NCBI RefSeq assembly: GCF_034479635.1
Contig: NZ_CP140153.1
Span: 751,501-815,500 of the forward strand
Reading direction: 5' to 3'
DNA length: 64,000 nucleotides
Origin: Guyparkeria halophila
GTDB taxonomy: Bacteria; Pseudomonadota; Gammaproteobacteria; Halothiobacillales; Halothiobacillaceae
In this document: piece after piece, positions 4,334 through 28,708 of the stretch
How the letters are laid out: each line of letters starts with the position of its first letter
How positions within the stretch are numbered: position 1 is the first letter of the stretch
Made by a program: the position numbers and the translations under genes
Notes under the pieces: generated by a model
What the model was told of the DNA's origin: nothing
What the model saw: only the letters and a program-made list of their open reading frames with translations
Database searches by the model: none

Positions 4334-5686
4334 ATGCAATTGATCGGCCCTTCTCCGACCGAGCGCCGTGAATACCAGCGCCGCCGCAAGCGCCTGATCA
4401 AGGCCATCGGCAAGCGCAGTGCCGCCATCGTGCCGGCGGCCGTGGAACAGCAGCGCAACCACGACAACCCCTGGCCCTTCCGCCAGTCGAGCGACTTCTA
4501 CTACCTCACCGGCCTGGCCGAACCGGATGCCCTGCTGCTGATCTGTCCCAAGCGTCCGGAGGGCGAGGTGATCGCCTTCGTCCACCCGCGCGATCCGGAA
4601 CGCGAGCGCTGGGAGGGGCCGCAACTGGGCACGGAGCGAGCCCCGGCCGCGCTGGGGATCGATCAGGCCTTCGGCATCGACGAGATCGACGAGCGGCTGC
4701 CCGAACTGCTCAAGGGCTACAACAAGTGCTACCTGCCGTTCGATCAGCACGACTGGGTGGTGAACGCCCTGGGCTGGTTCGACGAACTGCGCCGTGGTGC
4801 CCGAGCGGGCGTCCAGCCGCCGGAAACGATCAAGGACGTCGCCGGCCCGATCCACGAGCAACGCCTGATCAAGTCGGCGCAGGAGATCGATCGGCTGCGC
4901 CGGGCGTGCGCGGTATCGGTCGAGGCGCACCTGGCGGCGGCACGCGGCGTGCACGCCGGGTTGTTCGAGTTCGAGATCGCCGCGATCCTGCAGAAGGTCT
5001 TTGCCTGCGCGCACGGCGAGCCGTCGTTCGCCCCGATCGTCGCCGGCGGCGCCAATGCCTGCGTGCTGCACTATCGGGCCAACGTCGCCGAGCTCAAGGA
5101 CGGCGACCTGGTGCTGATCGACGCCGGCGCGGAGGTCGACTACTACGCCGGCGACATCACCCGCACCTGGCCGGTGAGCGGCACGTTCAGCAAGCCTCAG
5201 CGCGCGCTCTATCAACTGGTGCTCGACGCGCAACTGGCCGCGATCGAGACGATCGCCCCCGGGGTGTCCTTCGATGCCCCCCATCAGGCCGCCGTGCGCG
5301 TGATCACGGAAGGCCTGATCGAGCTCGGCTTGATCGACGGGCCGGTCGATGAGGCGATCGAGGCCGGGCGCTATCGATCCTTCTTCATGCATCGCACTGG
5401 CCACTGGCTGGGATCGGACGTCCATGACGTGGGCGGCTATCGTGTCGATGGCGACTGGCGCGAGCTCGAGCCGGGCATGGTGATGACCGTCGAGCCGGGT
5501 CTCTACATCGACCCGCAGTCGGAGGCGCCGGAGGAATACCGCGGCATCGGCATTCGCATCGAGGACGACGTGCTGGTCACCGAGGACGGGCACGATGTGC
5601 TAACCCGCGGTGTCCCGAAGCAGATCGACGAAATCGAGGCGCTGTTCGCCGGGCGGCGCGATCCCGCCAGCCAGCCGCTCGAATAG
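4334..5686 (+). CDS. pepP: Xaa-Pro aminopeptidase P
   Basis: 450 aa, M24B metallopeptidase that removes an N-terminal residue before proline. The N-terminal creatinase-like domain covers about residues 1-170 and the pita-bread catalytic domain follows. All five metal ligands are visible in order: the two Asp in LIDAGAEVDYYAGDITRTW, the His in MHRTGHWLGSDVHD, the Glu in MTVEPGLYI and the Glu in GIRIEDDVLV. The ATG at 4334 lies after GAGCGACGAG. The next gene follows after 32 nt, in the conserved order seen with the ubiquinone hydroxylases. Confidence 0.95.
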   Translation: MQLIGPSPTERREYQRRRKRLIKAIGKRSAAIVPAAVEQQRNHDNPWPFRQSSDFYYLTGLAEPDALLLICPKRPEGEVIAFVHPRDPERERWEGPQLGTERAPAALGIDQAFGIDEIDERLPELLKGYNKCYLPFDQHDWVVNALGWFDELRRGARAGVQPPETIKDVAGPIHEQRLIKSAQEIDRLRRACAVSVEAHLAAARGVHAGLFEFEIAAILQKVFACAHGEPSFAPIVAGGANACVLHYRANVAELKDGDLVLIDAGAEVDYYAGDITRTWPVSGTFSKPQRALYQLVLDAQLAAIETIAPGVSFDAPHQAAVRVITEGLIELGLIDGPVDEAIEAGRYRSFFMHRTGHWLGSDVHDVGGYRVDGDWRELEPGMVMTVEPGLYIDPQSEAPEEYRGIGIRIEDDVLVTEDGHDVLTRGVPKQIDEIEALFAGRRDPASQPLE

Positions 5687-19366: not shown

Positions 19367-19393
19367 CCAACCCGTCGGCGATTCCAAATAGCG

Positions 19394-19419
19394 AAAACCC
19401 CGCCATCCGGCGGGGTTTT
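19394..19419. terminator. Bidirectional intrinsic terminator
   Basis: An 11-bp perfect stem (AAAACCCCGCC / GGCGGGGTTTT) with an ATCC loop, A-rich on the left and T-rich on the right. It sits between the convergent yqhA-like gene and nrsF and should work on both strands. Confidence 0.85.
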
Positions 19420-19448
19420 TCGTCAGGGCGACGAATCCGTCGGCATTG

Positions 19449-20093
19449 TTACCAGTGCAGCAGGCGCGGCCCGAGCCAGGCGCCCAGGGTTGTCGGGATC
19501 GCGACCCCGAGCAGGTACCACAGGGCGATGAAGGGGGCGGTCATCTCCGGGCAGTGCAGCGAGTAGACCAGCGCGGCAAGCGACCCCGAGAACAGCCCGG
19601 CGGACGCGCCGGCCAGTCGCAGCCGGGTCGGCGCCATGCCGCGCATCGCCCACAGGGTGCTTGCCAGCAGCGGGGCGGCCAGCAGGGCGATCAGGAAGGC
19701 GCAGCTGCTCCAGGTCTCGCCCAGCAGCAGGGTGACGCGCTGTGATGGCGTCGCCTGGCTCAGTGAGGCGAGGGCCAGCAGCCATAGCAGCAGCACCGGC
19801 AGGGCGGTGGTCGACGGCGGCAGCCTGCCCAGCTTGATCCCCGGCCGGCCCAGTCGCCAGGTGGCGAGCAGACCGGCGACGATCAGCAGGCCGGCAAAGC
19901 CGATCTTGACCCAGAACATCGGGTCCATGGCCGCCTGGGGCAGGTCAGATCGGATCCCGAGCAATCCCAGCATCAGGGCGATGCTTGCGAGCAGGCCAGC
20001 CGCGGTCGCCAGTGCCAGTCGGCTCGGAAGCATGCGGCGGGGCACGGCCACCTCGCCGGCGGCGAGTAGGGAGACCAGTTCGTCTGTCTTCAT
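19449..20093 (-). CDS. nrsF: NrsF-type anti-sigma factor (DUF1109)
   Basis: 214 aa with six predicted membrane helices, the DUF1109/NrsF layout. NrsF proteins hold their ECF sigma factor at the inner membrane and release it on oxidative or chlorine stress. Two cysteines, C131 (WSSC) and C181 (SLHC), are the positions I recall as conserved and needed for signalling in the Caulobacter protein. The start overlaps the sigF stop by 4 nt (ATGA), so stoichiometric synthesis is likely. Function is assigned from the family plus the linked YedY1/MrpX genes. Confidence 0.88.
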   Translation of the reverse strand: MKTDELVSLLAAGEVAVPRRMLPSRLALATAAGLLASIALMLGLLGIRSDLPQAAMDPMFWVKIGFAGLLIVAGLLATWRLGRPGIKLGRLPPSTTALPVLLLWLLALASLSQATPSQRVTLLLGETWSSCAFLIALLAAPLLASTLWAMRGMAPTRLRLAGASAGLFSGSLAALVYSLHCPEMTAPFIALWYLLGVAIPTTLGAWLGPRLLHW

Positions 20094-20632
20094 GCGTTTT
20101 GCCCCTGGATCAGTTTGGACAGTGCCTTGAGGCCGCGATGGACGCCGACCTTGACGGCCGATTCGGACATGCCGGTGCGCTGCGCGGTCTCGGCGACCGA
20201 CAGTCCCTCCAGCTTCATGTGCCGGATTGCCACGCGCTGGCGTTCCGGCAATCGGGCGAGCAGCCGGTCCAGATCTCGGCCCGCCATCTCGTCGTGCTCG
20301 GGGGCGCTTGGTTCCAGCGCCGTTTCCATGTCCAGTGAGTCGGTCCGCTGCTCCCGTCGTTGTCGTCGTCGCAGCAGGTCGGCGAGCTTGTAGCGGGCGA
20401 TCGCGTAGAGCCAGGCGGTGACCGGCAGGGTCGGGTCATAGGTCTGGCGCTTGTCGTGGATCGCCAGCAGCGAATCCTGTACCAGGTCTTCCACCTCGTC
20501 GGGCAGGCTGCCCAGTCGGCGATGGAAGTAGTGCCGCAGCAGGTCGCCGGTGGCCTGCAGGAAGGCGTGATAGGCGCGATTGTCCCCGGACAGCCCATTC
20601 AGCAACCGTCTCCGCAGCTCCGCCTCGCTCAT
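20090..20632 (-). CDS. sigF: ECF sigma factor, SigF type
   Basis: 180 aa. Sigma region 2 (YFHRRLGSLPDEVEDLVQDSLLAIHDKRQTYDP, then AWLYAIARYKLADLLRR) and region 4 (LPERQRVAIRHMKLEGLSVAETAQRTGMSESAVKVGVHRGLKAL) are complete. The start is the ATG at 20632, 5 nt after GGAG. The ATG at 20656 overlaps the -10 box of the promoter found here and so cannot be in the transcript. The gene is cotranscribed with nrsF and divergent from the yedZ1-yedY1-mrpX genes, its likely targets. Confidence 0.92.
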   Translation of the reverse strand: MSEAELRRRLLNGLSGDNRAYHAFLQATGDLLRHYFHRRLGSLPDEVEDLVQDSLLAIHDKRQTYDPTLPVTAWLYAIARYKLADLLRRRQRREQRTDSLDMETALEPSAPEHDEMAGRDLDRLLARLPERQRVAIRHMKLEGLSVAETAQRTGMSESAVKVGVHRGLKALSKLIQGQNA

Positions 20633-20655
20633 CTTCTCCCCACCATGCCCCTTCA

Positions 20656-20681
20656 TTCGTCCGCACCATGGGTCTGGTTAC
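20656..20681 (-). promoter_or_regulatory. SigF-type ECF promoter for sigF-nrsF
   Basis: On the minus strand GTAACC (20681-20676) and CGAA (20659-20656) are separated by 16 nt. The same bipartite element occurs on the plus strand 60 nt away, supporting autoregulation. Confidence 0.8.
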
Positions 20682-20740
20682 ATCCGCGATTGTAGGCCCC
20701 CCGGTTTTTGTCGCGCCATGCCATCGATCGAGCCATGCTT

Positions 20741-20766
20741 GTAACCAACTGCCGGCCAGCGGCGAA
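20741..20766 (+). promoter_or_regulatory. SigF-type ECF promoter for yedZ1-yedY1-mrpX
   Basis: GTAACC (20741-20746), a 16-nt spacer, CGAA (20763-20766). It is identical in both boxes and spacing to the divergent element before sigF. The ATG at 20766 overlaps the -10 box, which rules it out as a start codon. Confidence 0.82.
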
Positions 20767-20837
20767 TGAAAGGGTACGTCCATCATCGCGAGGGTCGGGC
20801 CGCTGGCTCGACAACCGAGCGTTTCAGGAGGCCGCCC

Positions 20838-21479
20838 ATGAACGCAGAGCCCGTCAGGGCCGGTTCGGTCCGAGCCGGCAAGGCCACCGGAGATGTGCCG
20901 CCGGTTCATCCGCTGTGGCTGCGGCTGACCCACTGGCTCAATGCGCTGGCGGTGGTGCTGATGGTGATGAGCGGCTGGCGGATCTACAACGCCTCGCCGT
21001 TGTTCGATTTTCGCTTTGCCGACGAGATCACGCTCGGGGGCTGGTTGGCCGGCGCGATCCTGTGGCATTTCGCGGCCATGTGGCTGCTGGTGGTCAACGG
21101 GGTGCTCTACCTGAGTATCAACACGGCCACCGGCCGGCTGTGGCGGCGGTTCTTCCCCCTTTCGCCACGCGGGTTCGTGGCCGACCTGAAGGCCGCCTTC
21201 CACGGCCGGCTCTCCCATGCCGATCCTCGCCGTTACAACACGGTGCAGCGGGCCGCCTACCTGTTCGTGATCCTCGATCTGGTGCTGCTGGTGGTCTCCG
21301 GGCTGGTGCTGTGGAAATCGGTGCAGTTCCCGCTGCTGCGCGAGCTGATGGGCGGCTACGAGGCGGCGCGCTACGTCCATTTCTTCACGATGGCGGCCCT
21401 GGTCGGCTTCGTCGCAATCCACGTGGCGATGGCGCTGCTGGTGCCGCGTTCGCTGCTGCACATGATTCGTGGTCGATGA
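20838..21479 (+). CDS. yedZ1: b-type cytochrome membrane subunit (YedZ1-like)
   Basis: 213 aa, cytochrome b/b561-like. Four membrane helices carry candidate haem ligands H32 (LTHWLN), H77 (LWHFAAMW), H181 (YVHFFTM) and H195 (AIHVAMAL). It is predicted to feed electrons from the quinone pool to the periplasmic molybdoenzyme encoded next. The start ATG 20838 has CAGGAGG 6 nt upstream; the longer upstream frame would begin inside the promoter. It lies 13 nt before yedY1. In Azospira the equivalent is YedZ1; the symbol is given by analogy. Confidence 0.8.
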   Translation: MNAEPVRAGSVRAGKATGDVPPVHPLWLRLTHWLNALAVVLMVMSGWRIYNASPLFDFRFADEITLGGWLAGAILWHFAAMWLLVVNGVLYLSINTATGRLWRRFFPLSPRGFVADLKAAFHGRLSHADPRRYNTVQRAAYLFVILDLVLLVVSGLVLWKSVQFPLLRELMGGYEAARYVHFFTMAALVGFVAIHVAMALLVPRSLLHMIRGR

Positions 21480-21492
21480 CCGAGGAGCTGGC

Positions 21493-22242
21493 ATGAACGA
21501 TCGACAGAAACGAATGTGCGAAATGGAGATGGGTCCGGAGCAACCGGATCGGCGGCGTTTCCTGCGTGGCTCGCTGGCGCTAGGCGCATTGCCGCTGCTG
21601 GGCGGCTGCTCGGTCAGCGACGAGCCGATCGTCGAGAAGGCGTTGCTGCAGGTTTCTCGATTCAACGACCGCGTGCAGGCCTGGCTGTTCGATCCCGAGC
21701 AGCTCGCGCCGACGTACCCCGAGTCGATGATCACCCGGCCGTTTCCCTTCAACGCCTATTACTCGCTGGACAAGGTGCCGCAGATCGACGGCGAACGCTT
21801 TCGTCTGCAGGTCGGTGGCCGGGTCGCCGACCAACGTCCATGGTCACTGGCCGAACTGCGCACCCTGCCGCAGGCGGATCAGGTCACCCGCCTGATCTGC
21901 GTCGAGGGCTGGAGTGCGATCGGCAAGTGGGGCGGGGTGCGCTTCTCGGACTTCCTGGAGCGCATCGGCGCCGACCTCGAGGCCCAATACGTCGGCTTTC
22001 GCTGTGCCGACGGCTACTACACCAGCATCGACATGCCCACCGCGCTCCATCCGCAGACGCTGCTGACACTGACATTCGACGGGCAGGTCTTGCCCGCCCG
22101 CTACGGTTTTCCGCTCAAGCTGCGCATGCCGACTAAGCTTGGCTACAAGAACCCCAAGCATGTCGAGGCGCTGTTCGTCACCAACAGGTACCCCGGCGGC
22201 TACTGGGAGGATCGTGGGTACAACTGGTTCGGCGGCAGCTGA
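21493..22242 (+). CDS. yedY1: Tat-exported molybdopterin oxidoreductase, YedY1-like methionine sulfoxide reductase
   Basis: 249 aa sulfite-oxidase-fold protein. The N-terminus has the twin-arginine motif RRRFLRGSLALGAL (R20-R22) and then LPLLGGC with C39, a lipobox-like end, so it may be a Tat lipoprotein. The molybdenum ligand is probably C136 in RLICVEGWSAIGKW; the family GVRFSDFLE, GYYTSIDM and PLKLRMPTKLGYKNPKHVEAL are present. Start ATG 21493 follows GAGGAG. Expected role: reduction of methionine sulfoxide in MrpX and other periplasmic proteins. Confidence 0.85.
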   Translation: MNDRQKRMCEMEMGPEQPDRRRFLRGSLALGALPLLGGCSVSDEPIVEKALLQVSRFNDRVQAWLFDPEQLAPTYPESMITRPFPFNAYYSLDKVPQIDGERFRLQVGGRVADQRPWSLAELRTLPQADQVTRLICVEGWSAIGKWGGVRFSDFLERIGADLEAQYVGFRCADGYYTSIDMPTALHPQTLLTLTFDGQVLPARYGFPLKLRMPTKLGYKNPKHVEALFVTNRYPGGYWEDRGYNWFGGS

Positions 22243-22316
22243 GCATTGGGCTCGGCTGCGCTGAGGCATGGCACTGCCGCCATGCACCATTAGCGTAACG
22301 ACAAGAGGGTATTCCC

Positions 22317-22655
22317 ATGAAGACGATGACGGTATCGATGATCTGTGCCGGCCTGATGACCATGGGCACCGCCGCTATCGCGGCCGAGCCCATGCAGCAG
22401 GATGTTTACACCACCCTTGCCATGTCTCACGAGGACGGGGAGAAAAAAGACGGCATGGGCCATGACGAAATGGGCGGTGGCGAGATGTCCCGCGAGGAAG
22501 TGGGGGACGAGATGTCCGGCGACGAGATGGGCCAGGACGCCATGGAAAAGGACGAGATGGGCCACGGCAGCATGGACCAGGACGGCATGGACCATGACGG
22601 TATGGACAAGGATGACAAGATGGGTGACGAAATGGGCGGTGGCATGGGCGAGTAA
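22317..22655 (+). CDS. mrpX: Periplasmic methionine-rich peptide, MrpX-like
   Basis: 112 aa. A Sec signal peptide (about residues 1-23, ending TAAIAA) is followed by a mature chain of about 89 residues with 15 Met spaced every four to seven residues among Asp, Glu and Gly (DEMGGGEMSREEVGDEM as an example). It has no cysteine and no predicted fold. Methionine-rich peptides in this position act as sacrificial sinks for hypochlorite and are re-reduced by YedY1. A copper-binding role is an alternative, given Met/His content. It lies 74 nt after yedY1 and is followed by a terminator. Confidence 0.82.
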   Translation: MKTMTVSMICAGLMTMGTAAIAAEPMQQDVYTTLAMSHEDGEKKDGMGHDEMGGGEMSREEVGDEMSGDEMGQDAMEKDEMGHGSMDQDGMDHDGMDKDDKMGDEMGGGMGE

Positions 22656-22680
22656 GCTCGCCACCCTCGACCCATTCGAG

Positions 22681-22714
22681 CCCGCCGCGGTCCTGGCGAC
22701 CCGGCGGGTTTTTT
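22681..22714 (+). terminator. Terminator of the yedZ1-yedY1-mrpX operon
   Basis: CCCGCCG pairs with CGGCGGG around a 14-nt loop, followed by six T. It lies 25 nt after the mrpX stop. Confidence 0.75.
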
Positions 22715-22744
22715 CGTGGCGTGCCTGTGGCGCGGGCACAAAAA

Positions 22745-26817: not shown

Positions 26818-27128
26818 GATTCCTACATGACCTACTGAACTTCGGTATACGCCTGCACTTTTACGTTACTGCCTCTGTTGCGCAGCCGTTTTTCAGCAGA
26901 TCGGGTGCCCAGTTCCAAGTCTGTTGCCGCTTGGCCTTTGTTCTTCCCTCGCGCACCGCGGGGCTGAGCTGTGAGGGCACTATGTGCACCTGGATGGGAA
27001 GCCGGTGGCTCCCCCGTGGGTTCGCTGTAAAAGGCACCTATTTCGGGACGGCTCCAAACCTTATGATGCGGGTCGAAAATTGGTTAAGCTACGGAGCTTC
27101 AGGCTCGCTTCCTGTTGAGGGGTGGTTG
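26818..27128. other. Non-coding stretch between tRNA-Arg and the HipA-like gene
   Basis: About 310 nt of mixed composition. The downstream gene's frame is open through it, but no start with a convincing ribosome binding site or family homology was seen before 27129. ATGs at 27063 and 27066 are possible alternatives. I see no integrase fragment and no second copy of the tRNA end. Confidence 0.4.
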
Positions 27129-27863
27129 TTGGTAGTCCAAATTACCGAGGTCGTACGTCGTGCTGAGCAGGGGGTGACGCGGCCCTTCATTTGTCGTGAT
27201 GACGAAGGGGTCACCTACTTTGTCAAAGGCATCGGTGCTGGACGTAAGAGTCAGCTTTCCGAATGGCTTTGTGGCAAGTTTGCTGAGGCGATTGGGCTGC
27301 CTGTGGCTCCTTTCAAGATTGTGGAAGTGCCTGAGGAACTGCTCGAGTTTGATAACGGCATGGATCTGTCGGACCTCGGTTCTGGCCCGGTCTTTGCTTC
27401 CGAGAAGCAAGAAGTCATAGAGCTTACCGGAGCAGCGATAGACGAAATTCCCGATGAGGTTCAACGAGATGTTCTGGTGTTCGATTGGTGGGTAAGGAAC
27501 TCGGATCGGATGTTCAGTACCGAGAATGGTGGGAACCCGAACTTGTTTTTGCGTCCGCGATCACACGAACTAGTAGTGATTGATCACAACCAAGCCTTCG
27601 ATGAGGACTTTAGTCCGGAAGAGTTCCTTGAATATCATATATTTGCGCATCAGGCGGAAGGTGTCTTCGGTGACATGTTTCGAAGGGACGCGTACAACAG
27701 CCGATTTGCCTCTATTCTCGATCAGTGGGATGTGATTCGGCGAACTGTTCCGCCTGAGTGGGGATACACAGACCCTGAGATGACCGTTCCAGTCAGTTTC
27801 GGCCTAGAGGATGCTTATAGGGTGTTGAGTCAGCACGATCAGGTTGGCTTTTGGGATCGGTAA
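27129..27863 (+). CDS. HipA-like kinase domain protein
   Basis: 244 aa, resembling the HipA_2 group of kinase-fold proteins. Family opening: VVQITEVVRRAEQGVTRPFICRDDEG followed by YFVKG with the presumed ATP-binding K33. The catalytic region reads WVRNSDRMFSTENGGNPNLFL with D126 and N138, then VVIDHNQAFD with metal-binding D152, so the kinase looks intact. No HipB-type antitoxin is adjacent. I choose the TTG at 27129, 8 nt after GAGG; the start is uncertain. The stop overlaps the next ATG (TAATG). Lower GC than the chromosome and a tRNA-proximal site suggest acquisition. Target unknown. Confidence 0.75.
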   Translation: MVVQITEVVRRAEQGVTRPFICRDDEGVTYFVKGIGAGRKSQLSEWLCGKFAEAIGLPVAPFKIVEVPEELLEFDNGMDLSDLGSGPVFASEKQEVIELTGAAIDEIPDEVQRDVLVFDWWVRNSDRMFSTENGGNPNLFLRPRSHELVVIDHNQAFDEDFSPEEFLEYHIFAHQAEGVFGDMFRRDAYNSRFASILDQWDVIRRTVPPEWGYTDPEMTVPVSFGLEDAYRVLSQHDQVGFWDR

Positions 27864-28708
27864 TGAAGAATTTTGCATGCCAATACGTAGTGGTTCGCTT
27901 CTCTCCGTTCGTTGAGACGGGGGAGTTTGCGAACGTAGGGATCCTCATGATGGCGCCTCGGAAGCGATTCTTCGCCTTCGAGTTGCAGACGCGTCGCTAC
28001 AAGCGTGTGACTCACTTCTTTGATGACCTCGACCCAGGGTTGTATCGAGCGGCTCTTCACCAAGTTAAGGAGGAGTTGGAGAGAGTTCGTGGACTTTTAA
28101 TGGAACATGGATTCGACCGACGCCGAAAGGAAGTCGATACGGATTTTGCGAAGCATGTTTTTCATGAGGTTGTTCGTCCCCGAGAAAGCATTATTCGGTT
28201 TAGTGAGCCGAGGGTTGTTTTGACGGATGATCCAAAGAAAAAGATCCAAGACTTGTACAAGTTTTATGTTGAGCGGAATTTTGTAACGAAGGAATATCAG
28301 GAGGCAGTGCTCGAGAGAGGTGTCCGTAAGTTATTAACGAGCGCTAATCTTCAAGATCGCTTCCACCAAAAGAAAATTGGTGACGAAGAGTTTAATGCAA
28401 ACTTTCCTTTTGTAGAGGAAGTTAAAGGGCGGGCTGTGAAGATAATTAAGCCACTGAATTTGGCGCAAGATAGACCCAGCCAAATTTTAGAGCATGAAGC
28501 CCTTTGGCAATTCCGCTTGTCGGAGTTGAAAAATAAGAAGTTGCTGCCTGATAGGATTCTGTTTGCTGTTGGAGGGCCGGAGGAGTCGCATGAGGACGCC
28601 CGTCATGACGCTTTCTATAAGGCCATGGATCGTCTCAGGAAATTCGGTGTGGAAACCGCAAAAATAAATGACGAACGAAAGGTCATCGACTTTGCGCGGG
28701 CGAACTAG
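27863..28708 (+). CDS. DUF3037 domain-containing protein
   Basis: 281 aa. The N-terminus CQYVVVRFSPFVETGEFANVGILMMAP is the DUF3037 signature; the rest is charged and helical (RLRKFGVETAKINDERKVIDF at the end). Function is unknown. It starts on the last base of the HipA-like stop, so the two are translated together. The pairing of a HipA_2-like kinase with DUF3037 is, as I recall, recurrent in bacterial genomes, and a joint function is likely. Low GC matches its partner. Confidence 0.8.
   Translation: MKNFACQYVVVRFSPFVETGEFANVGILMMAPRKRFFAFELQTRRYKRVTHFFDDLDPGLYRAALHQVKEELERVRGLLMEHGFDRRRKEVDTDFAKHVFHEVVRPRESIIRFSEPRVVLTDDPKKKIQDLYKFYVERNFVTKEYQEAVLERGVRKLLTSANLQDRFHQKKIGDEEFNANFPFVEEVKGRAVKIIKPLNLAQDRPSQILEHEALWQFRLSELKNKKLLPDRILFAVGGPEESHEDARHDAFYKAMDRLRKFGVETAKINDERKVIDFARAN

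Follow-up and report, generated by a model that had tools for sequence, protein, structure and literature searches.

A probable SigF/NrsF-controlled methionine-cycling defence cassette in Guyparkeria halophila

Does a cluster of five divergent genes in Guyparkeria halophila form a complete defence against reactive chlorine, and is it arranged in a new way? The first-pass annotation of the window, i.e. the whole 64,000-nucleotide stretch of DNA that was analysed, had proposed both for an ECF sigma/anti-sigma pair lying divergent to a cytochrome, a molybdoenzyme and a secreted methionine-rich peptide. All five genes were found, in the orientations and with the families given there. The minus strand carries nrsF (19449–20093), encoding a membrane anti-sigma factor of 214 aa (Pfam NrsF, 4.1e-68), and sigF (20090–20632), encoding an ECF sigma factor of 180 aa with Sigma70 r2 and r4_2 domains. 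The plus strand carries yedZ1 (20838–21479), encoding a cytochrome b561-type membrane subunit of 213 aa (Pfam Ni_hydr_CYTB, PF01292, 3.7e-25); yedY1 (21493–22242), encoding a Tat-exported molybdopterin enzyme (Oxidored_molyb, 3.4e-29, plus a Tat signal); and mrpX (22317–22655), encoding a secreted, acidic, methionine-rich repeat peptide of 112 aa. Pfam and NCBIfam back every part, with mrpX alone just under its family cut-off. The set is bordered by a UPF0114 (YqhA) gene upstream and a convergent groEL downstream. Elsewhere in the window, positions 27078–28708 hold an adjacent pair of genes of unknown role, for a HipA-like kinase (PF20613) and a DUF3037 protein.

The boundaries of the transcription units could be placed closely. 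For sigF the translation start is almost certainly 20632 (MSEAEL...), because the first ATG, 20656, sits immediately against the -10 element CGAA; experiments revealed the same kind of wrong start in ecfF of B. japonicum (PMC3420878). Likewise, yedZ1 starts at 20838 and not at its first ATG at 20766. The terminator previously assigned to mrpX is present at 22678–22711 on the plus strand, with a fold of -25.4 kcal/mol (z -3.8) that none of 200 shuffled sequences equalled.

Two features are added here to the first-pass annotation, namely a pair of ECF16-type promoters and a lipobox in YedY1. The promoters are two perfect GTAACC-N16-CGAA sites placed head-to-head in the intergenic region, one towards sigF-nrsF (20656–20681, minus strand) and one towards yedZ1-yedY1-mrpX (20741–20766, plus strand). 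They are the only two matches in the 64 kb, compared with 0.30 expected. Both are identical to the experimentally defined sigma-F site of Caulobacter (PMC3511200), and the 5′-RACE-mapped BcrS promoters of Brucella have the same hexamer and spacing (PMC8315932). Among 150 related yedZ1-yedY1 loci, both promoter copies occur in 36 of the 47 linked to SigF, in none of the 22 linked to a two-component system and in one of the 81 others, and the spacer is exactly 16 nucleotides in all 77 promoters. When the forward promoters of the family are aligned, the blocks GTAACC and CGAAT are invariant and the bases around them vary. At the level of sequence, the promoter pair tracks SigF across related loci. 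Genome-wide, the strict motif has six matches, and a relaxed form (GTAAC-N16-18-CGAA) has 30, the same number as its reversed control. Of the off-locus matches, those that we inspected fall within open reading frames or are unconvincing, and we claim no further SigF targets; the predicted SigF regulon looks local.

The sigma factor lies beside the gene for a six-helix DUF1109/NrsF anti-sigma factor, the arrangement that defines a SigF/NrsF (ECF16) pair, with NrsF scoring 166 bits against the NCBIfam equivalog, below the cut-off of 300. The two cysteines expected of such a protein, C131 (codon 19701–19703) and C181 (codon 19551–19553), are kept in 36 of 36 homologues. In Caulobacter NrsF the tested cysteines carry the same numbers, and mutating them derepresses the regulon (PMC3511200).

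Comparison with congeners indicates that the locus behaves as a unit. Two of them (G004 and G010), with flanks of 89–95% DNA identity to the window, lack everything that lies between yqhA and the groEL terminator, which points to gain or loss of the cassette in one piece. Those congeners that have the module on contigs reaching the flanks carry it at the same site and in the same order. The replacing sequence in G004 is a small gene for a cytidine/nucleoside deaminase (about 2100–2600 of locus L296, equivalent to about 19368–22738 of the window). The word 'island' therefore holds in the sense of joint presence and absence. It does not hold in the sense of a mobile element, since the cassette contains no mobility genes and its GC content of 65.8%, against 64.9%, is native and gives no sign of foreign origin.

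Both enzyme subunits keep their functional residues. In YedZ1, membership of PF01292 is joined by histidines 32, 77, 127, 181 and 195, each found in 129–131 of 131 homologues, as fits a b-type cytochrome partner. Histidines 32, 77, 181 and 195 presumably correspond to the two-haem ligand positions of formate dehydrogenase FdnI, to which the alignment is weak. YedY1 combines a Tat signal with a molybdenum-ligand cysteine (C136), as the molybdoenzyme of a methionine-cycling module should. Its twin arginine (RR20-21), C39, C136 and C171 are conserved in 131 of 131 homologues. Because the invariant C39 (codon 21607–21609) closes a lipobox, LGGC39, behind the twin arginine, we predict that Tat exports YedY1 as a lipid-anchored lipoprotein. 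No statement of such an anchor was found in the literature examined, and the prediction appears to be new. A lipobox-like cysteine is also present in a more distant YedY subfamily (loci L130, L131, L133, L135 and L136). The fold of an AlphaFold model of YedY1 best matches E. coli YedY/MsrP (1xdq); we take this as corroboration only, since the model is moderate (mean pLDDT 72), with a mostly confident core at residues 90–230.

Assignment of YedY1 as MsrP itself was rejected, as it scores 67.2 bits against the NCBIfam equivalog NF003767, whose cut-off is 207. The genuine MsrP of the same genome reaches 420 bits and belongs to a separate, true MsrPQ pair at about 2,350,700–2,352,500 of the contig. 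The genome thus encodes two systems for reducing methionine sulfoxide in the periplasm, MsrPQ and YedY1Z1.

MrpX scores 37.1 bits (2.2e-9) against TIGR02953, 'pentapeptide MXKDX repeat', slightly under the cut-off of 41; we nevertheless count it as a secreted methionine-rich peptide of the MXKDX type. Its mature part consists of 16.7% methionine and has a net charge of -23. In this genus the charge ranges from -20 to -29, whereas 89 other relatives average about +2 and nearly all relatives are close to neutral. Methionine content, in contrast, is 17.8% versus 17.5%, and the five-residue spacing accounts for 65% of methionine intervals in the genus versus 72% in the other relatives. A strongly acidic MrpX that keeps methionine content and period appears to be new. 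Since methionine is kept while the remaining sequence and the charge diverge, these data suggest that selection acts on the density and period of methionine.

Very probably, then, the locus is a periplasmic methionine-cycling defence under SigF/NrsF control. By analogy with relatives, SigF would be held at rest by the membrane protein NrsF, and an oxidant outside the inner membrane would alter NrsF through its two cysteines and free SigF. Free SigF would then fire both head-to-head promoters, raising its own operon (autoregulation) together with yedZ1-yedY1-mrpX. The exported MrpX would offer roughly 15 mature methionines for sacrificial oxidation to methionine sulfoxide, a role as a sink that is likewise known in relatives. 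YedY1, which Tat would export in folded form and which is probably lipid-tethered, would return these sulfoxides to methionine with electrons passing from the quinol pool through the two-haem cytochrome YedZ1. The first-pass annotation had suggested this electron route, and it remains the best reading of the gene set, the promoters with their co-occurrence with SigF, the functional residues and the all-or-none occurrence of the cassette. For this organism we infer the chemistry, the signal and the lipid anchor. Counting against the methionine-cycling reading, some SigF-linked loci have no detectable mrpX; moreover, YedY1 falls below the curated MsrP cut-off and the same genome encodes a genuine MsrPQ, which leaves the requirement for a further system unproved.

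The claim of a new gene order did not survive comparison with other genomes. In UPEC, c3566-c3567-c3568 encode a cytochrome b, an MsrP-like protein and, last, a methionine-rich peptide. They were shown to form one operon that adjoins the orhKR regulator genes and is not cotranscribed with them (PMC8550376). The target order of this OrhK/OrhR system is thus identical to that of the window and likewise lies beside regulator genes. It differs in having a two-component system in place of SigF/NrsF, a ROS phenotype, and weak termination after the peptide where the window has a strong terminator. The order yedZ1-yedY1-mrpX is also annotated, with a divergent two-component system, on pRAHAQ01 of Rahnella. 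Together with SigF/NrsF it is found in named genomes of Caballeronia, Paraburkholderia, Burkholderia, Formivibrio and Hylemonella. It is shared by at least five relatives of a genome from Rhodocyclales, to which Azospira also belongs. Among the sampled SigF/NrsF-linked loci the peptide is last in 29 of 36 and first in 6 of 36, in a non-random sample searched with a heuristic peptide finder. The locus is a sound example of a known defence system, with all of its parts and an ordinary gene order, in a lineage outside those treated in the literature examined.

Other characterized systems share different parts of this design. Azospira suillum PS, the source of the methionine-cycling idea, has the same five parts (Melnyk et al. 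2015, mBio e00233-15, as cited in PMC5748585 and PMC4623255). In Brucella melitensis, bcrS-abcS is an ECF16 pair divergent from genes for an MXKDX peptide, a cytochrome and a molybdoenzyme (bcrXQP), with promoters identical to those of the window; HOCl induces the operon, and the operon protects against HOCl (PMC8315932). There, however, the peptide comes first (X-Q-P), and the enzyme probably belongs to a more distant YedY subfamily. Caulobacter crescentus SigF/NrsF agrees with the window in promoter and in the NrsF cysteines and has YedY in its regulon, but its targets are scattered, no MrpX operon is reported and the response is to chromium and cadmium (PMC3511200). E. coli MsrPQ (YedYZ) shares the catalytic-subunit fold with YedY1 and likely the reaction. 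The window's YedZ1, in contrast, is a cytochrome b561 (PF01292) and not of the MsrQ family, and YedY1 has a lipobox whereas MsrP is soluble.

These relatives also bear on the signal. Reactive chlorine, as originally proposed, is one of several proven signals of this sigma group, which include HOCl, H2O2, dichromate and cadmium. Reactive chlorine is a plausible signal here, and others are compatible with the data, because homologues respond to H2O2 in UPEC and Bradyrhizobium or to chromium and cadmium in Caulobacter. The same machinery might have peroxide, or a different oxidant such as chromate, as its physiological trigger and target, which we consider somewhat less likely than not. UPEC c3566/c3567 confer protection against H2O2, which their authors set against the role of MsrPQ in protection from RCS (PMC8550376); Bradyrhizobium EcfF is H2O2-responsive (PMC3420878), and Caulobacter sigma-F responds to dichromate and cadmium (PMC3511200). 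The closest published systems that pair a methionine-rich peptide with ECF16, those of Brucella and, as far as the citing papers describe it, Azospira, are however tied to HOCl. Moreover, methionine is oxidised far faster by HOCl than by H2O2, which counts against peroxide.

A second question is whether MrpX is the main substrate. YedZ1-YedY1 could act in general repair of periplasmic methionine sulfoxide with MrpX as an independent sink, in line with the absence of a detectable mrpX from about half of the sampled two-component-linked yedZ1-yedY1 loci and many others, and with the repair of several periplasmic proteins by E. coli MsrP (PMC8550376). We regard this as rather unlikely, given that mrpX is part of the same unit in each of the seven module-bearing congeners and at most SigF-linked loci. 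It is highly improbable that MrpX is mainly a copper/silver sponge with YedY1Z1 repairing metal-catalysed methionine damage: methionine, histidine and Asp/Glu are metal ligands, the peptide has 4% histidine and 32% acidic residues, and Caulobacter sigma-F does respond to metals (PMC3511200), but the invariant feature of MrpX is a methionine at every fifth residue and not clustered methionines or histidine motifs, no copper/silver transport genes were seen next to the module at the loci that we looked at, and the Azospira homologue is described, in the account given by PMC8550376, as a sacrificial HOCl scavenger.

Methionine cycling stays the preferred reading, and the effector genes that would carry it out are found well beyond SigF. 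At about 57% identity or above, a YedY1 homologue is present in 29 of 399 sampled Pseudomonadota genomes; this group is sharp, most further matches lying near 45% identity or below. The yedZ1-yedY1-peptide module also occurs on E. coli and Klebsiella plasmids, e.g. CP088375.1 and NZ_CP151194.1 (58 Escherichia and 13 Klebsiella records matched the search), and the YedY1 of the E. coli plasmids is about 60% identical to that of the window. The first-pass annotation had made the relation of YedY1 to SigF-linked families a test of its reading, and the window's YedY1 does fall among SigF-linked relatives in a 116-sequence tree. Along well-supported branches of this tree the SigF label changes at least five times and the two-component label at least five times, with labels that are approximate as some contigs are cut and some regulators were possibly missed. 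These repeated changes indicate that the regulator was replaced several times around one effector. Such mutual replacement of unrelated regulators around the same genes appears to be new. A further regulator type is an unrelated ECF sigma factor, encoded divergently to yedZ1-yedY1 in Caballeronia telluris (4486–5070 of locus L147).

We give about even weight to a broader proposal, in which YedY1 is a distinct lipid-tethered Tat class, MrpX is a disordered array of methionines whose only defining traits are methionine content and a period of five residues, its charge being free to drift (near-neutral MxKDx elsewhere, strongly acidic here), and the three-gene cassette has repeatedly been taken up by unrelated regulators. 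It predicts that YedY1 is lipid-tethered to the membrane and that MrpX needs methionine spacing, and not a particular sequence or charge. Our analysis extends a published oxidant-defence circuit to another bacterial family, in which it behaves as an all-or-none cassette, and indicates that one three-gene effector operates under several unrelated regulators.
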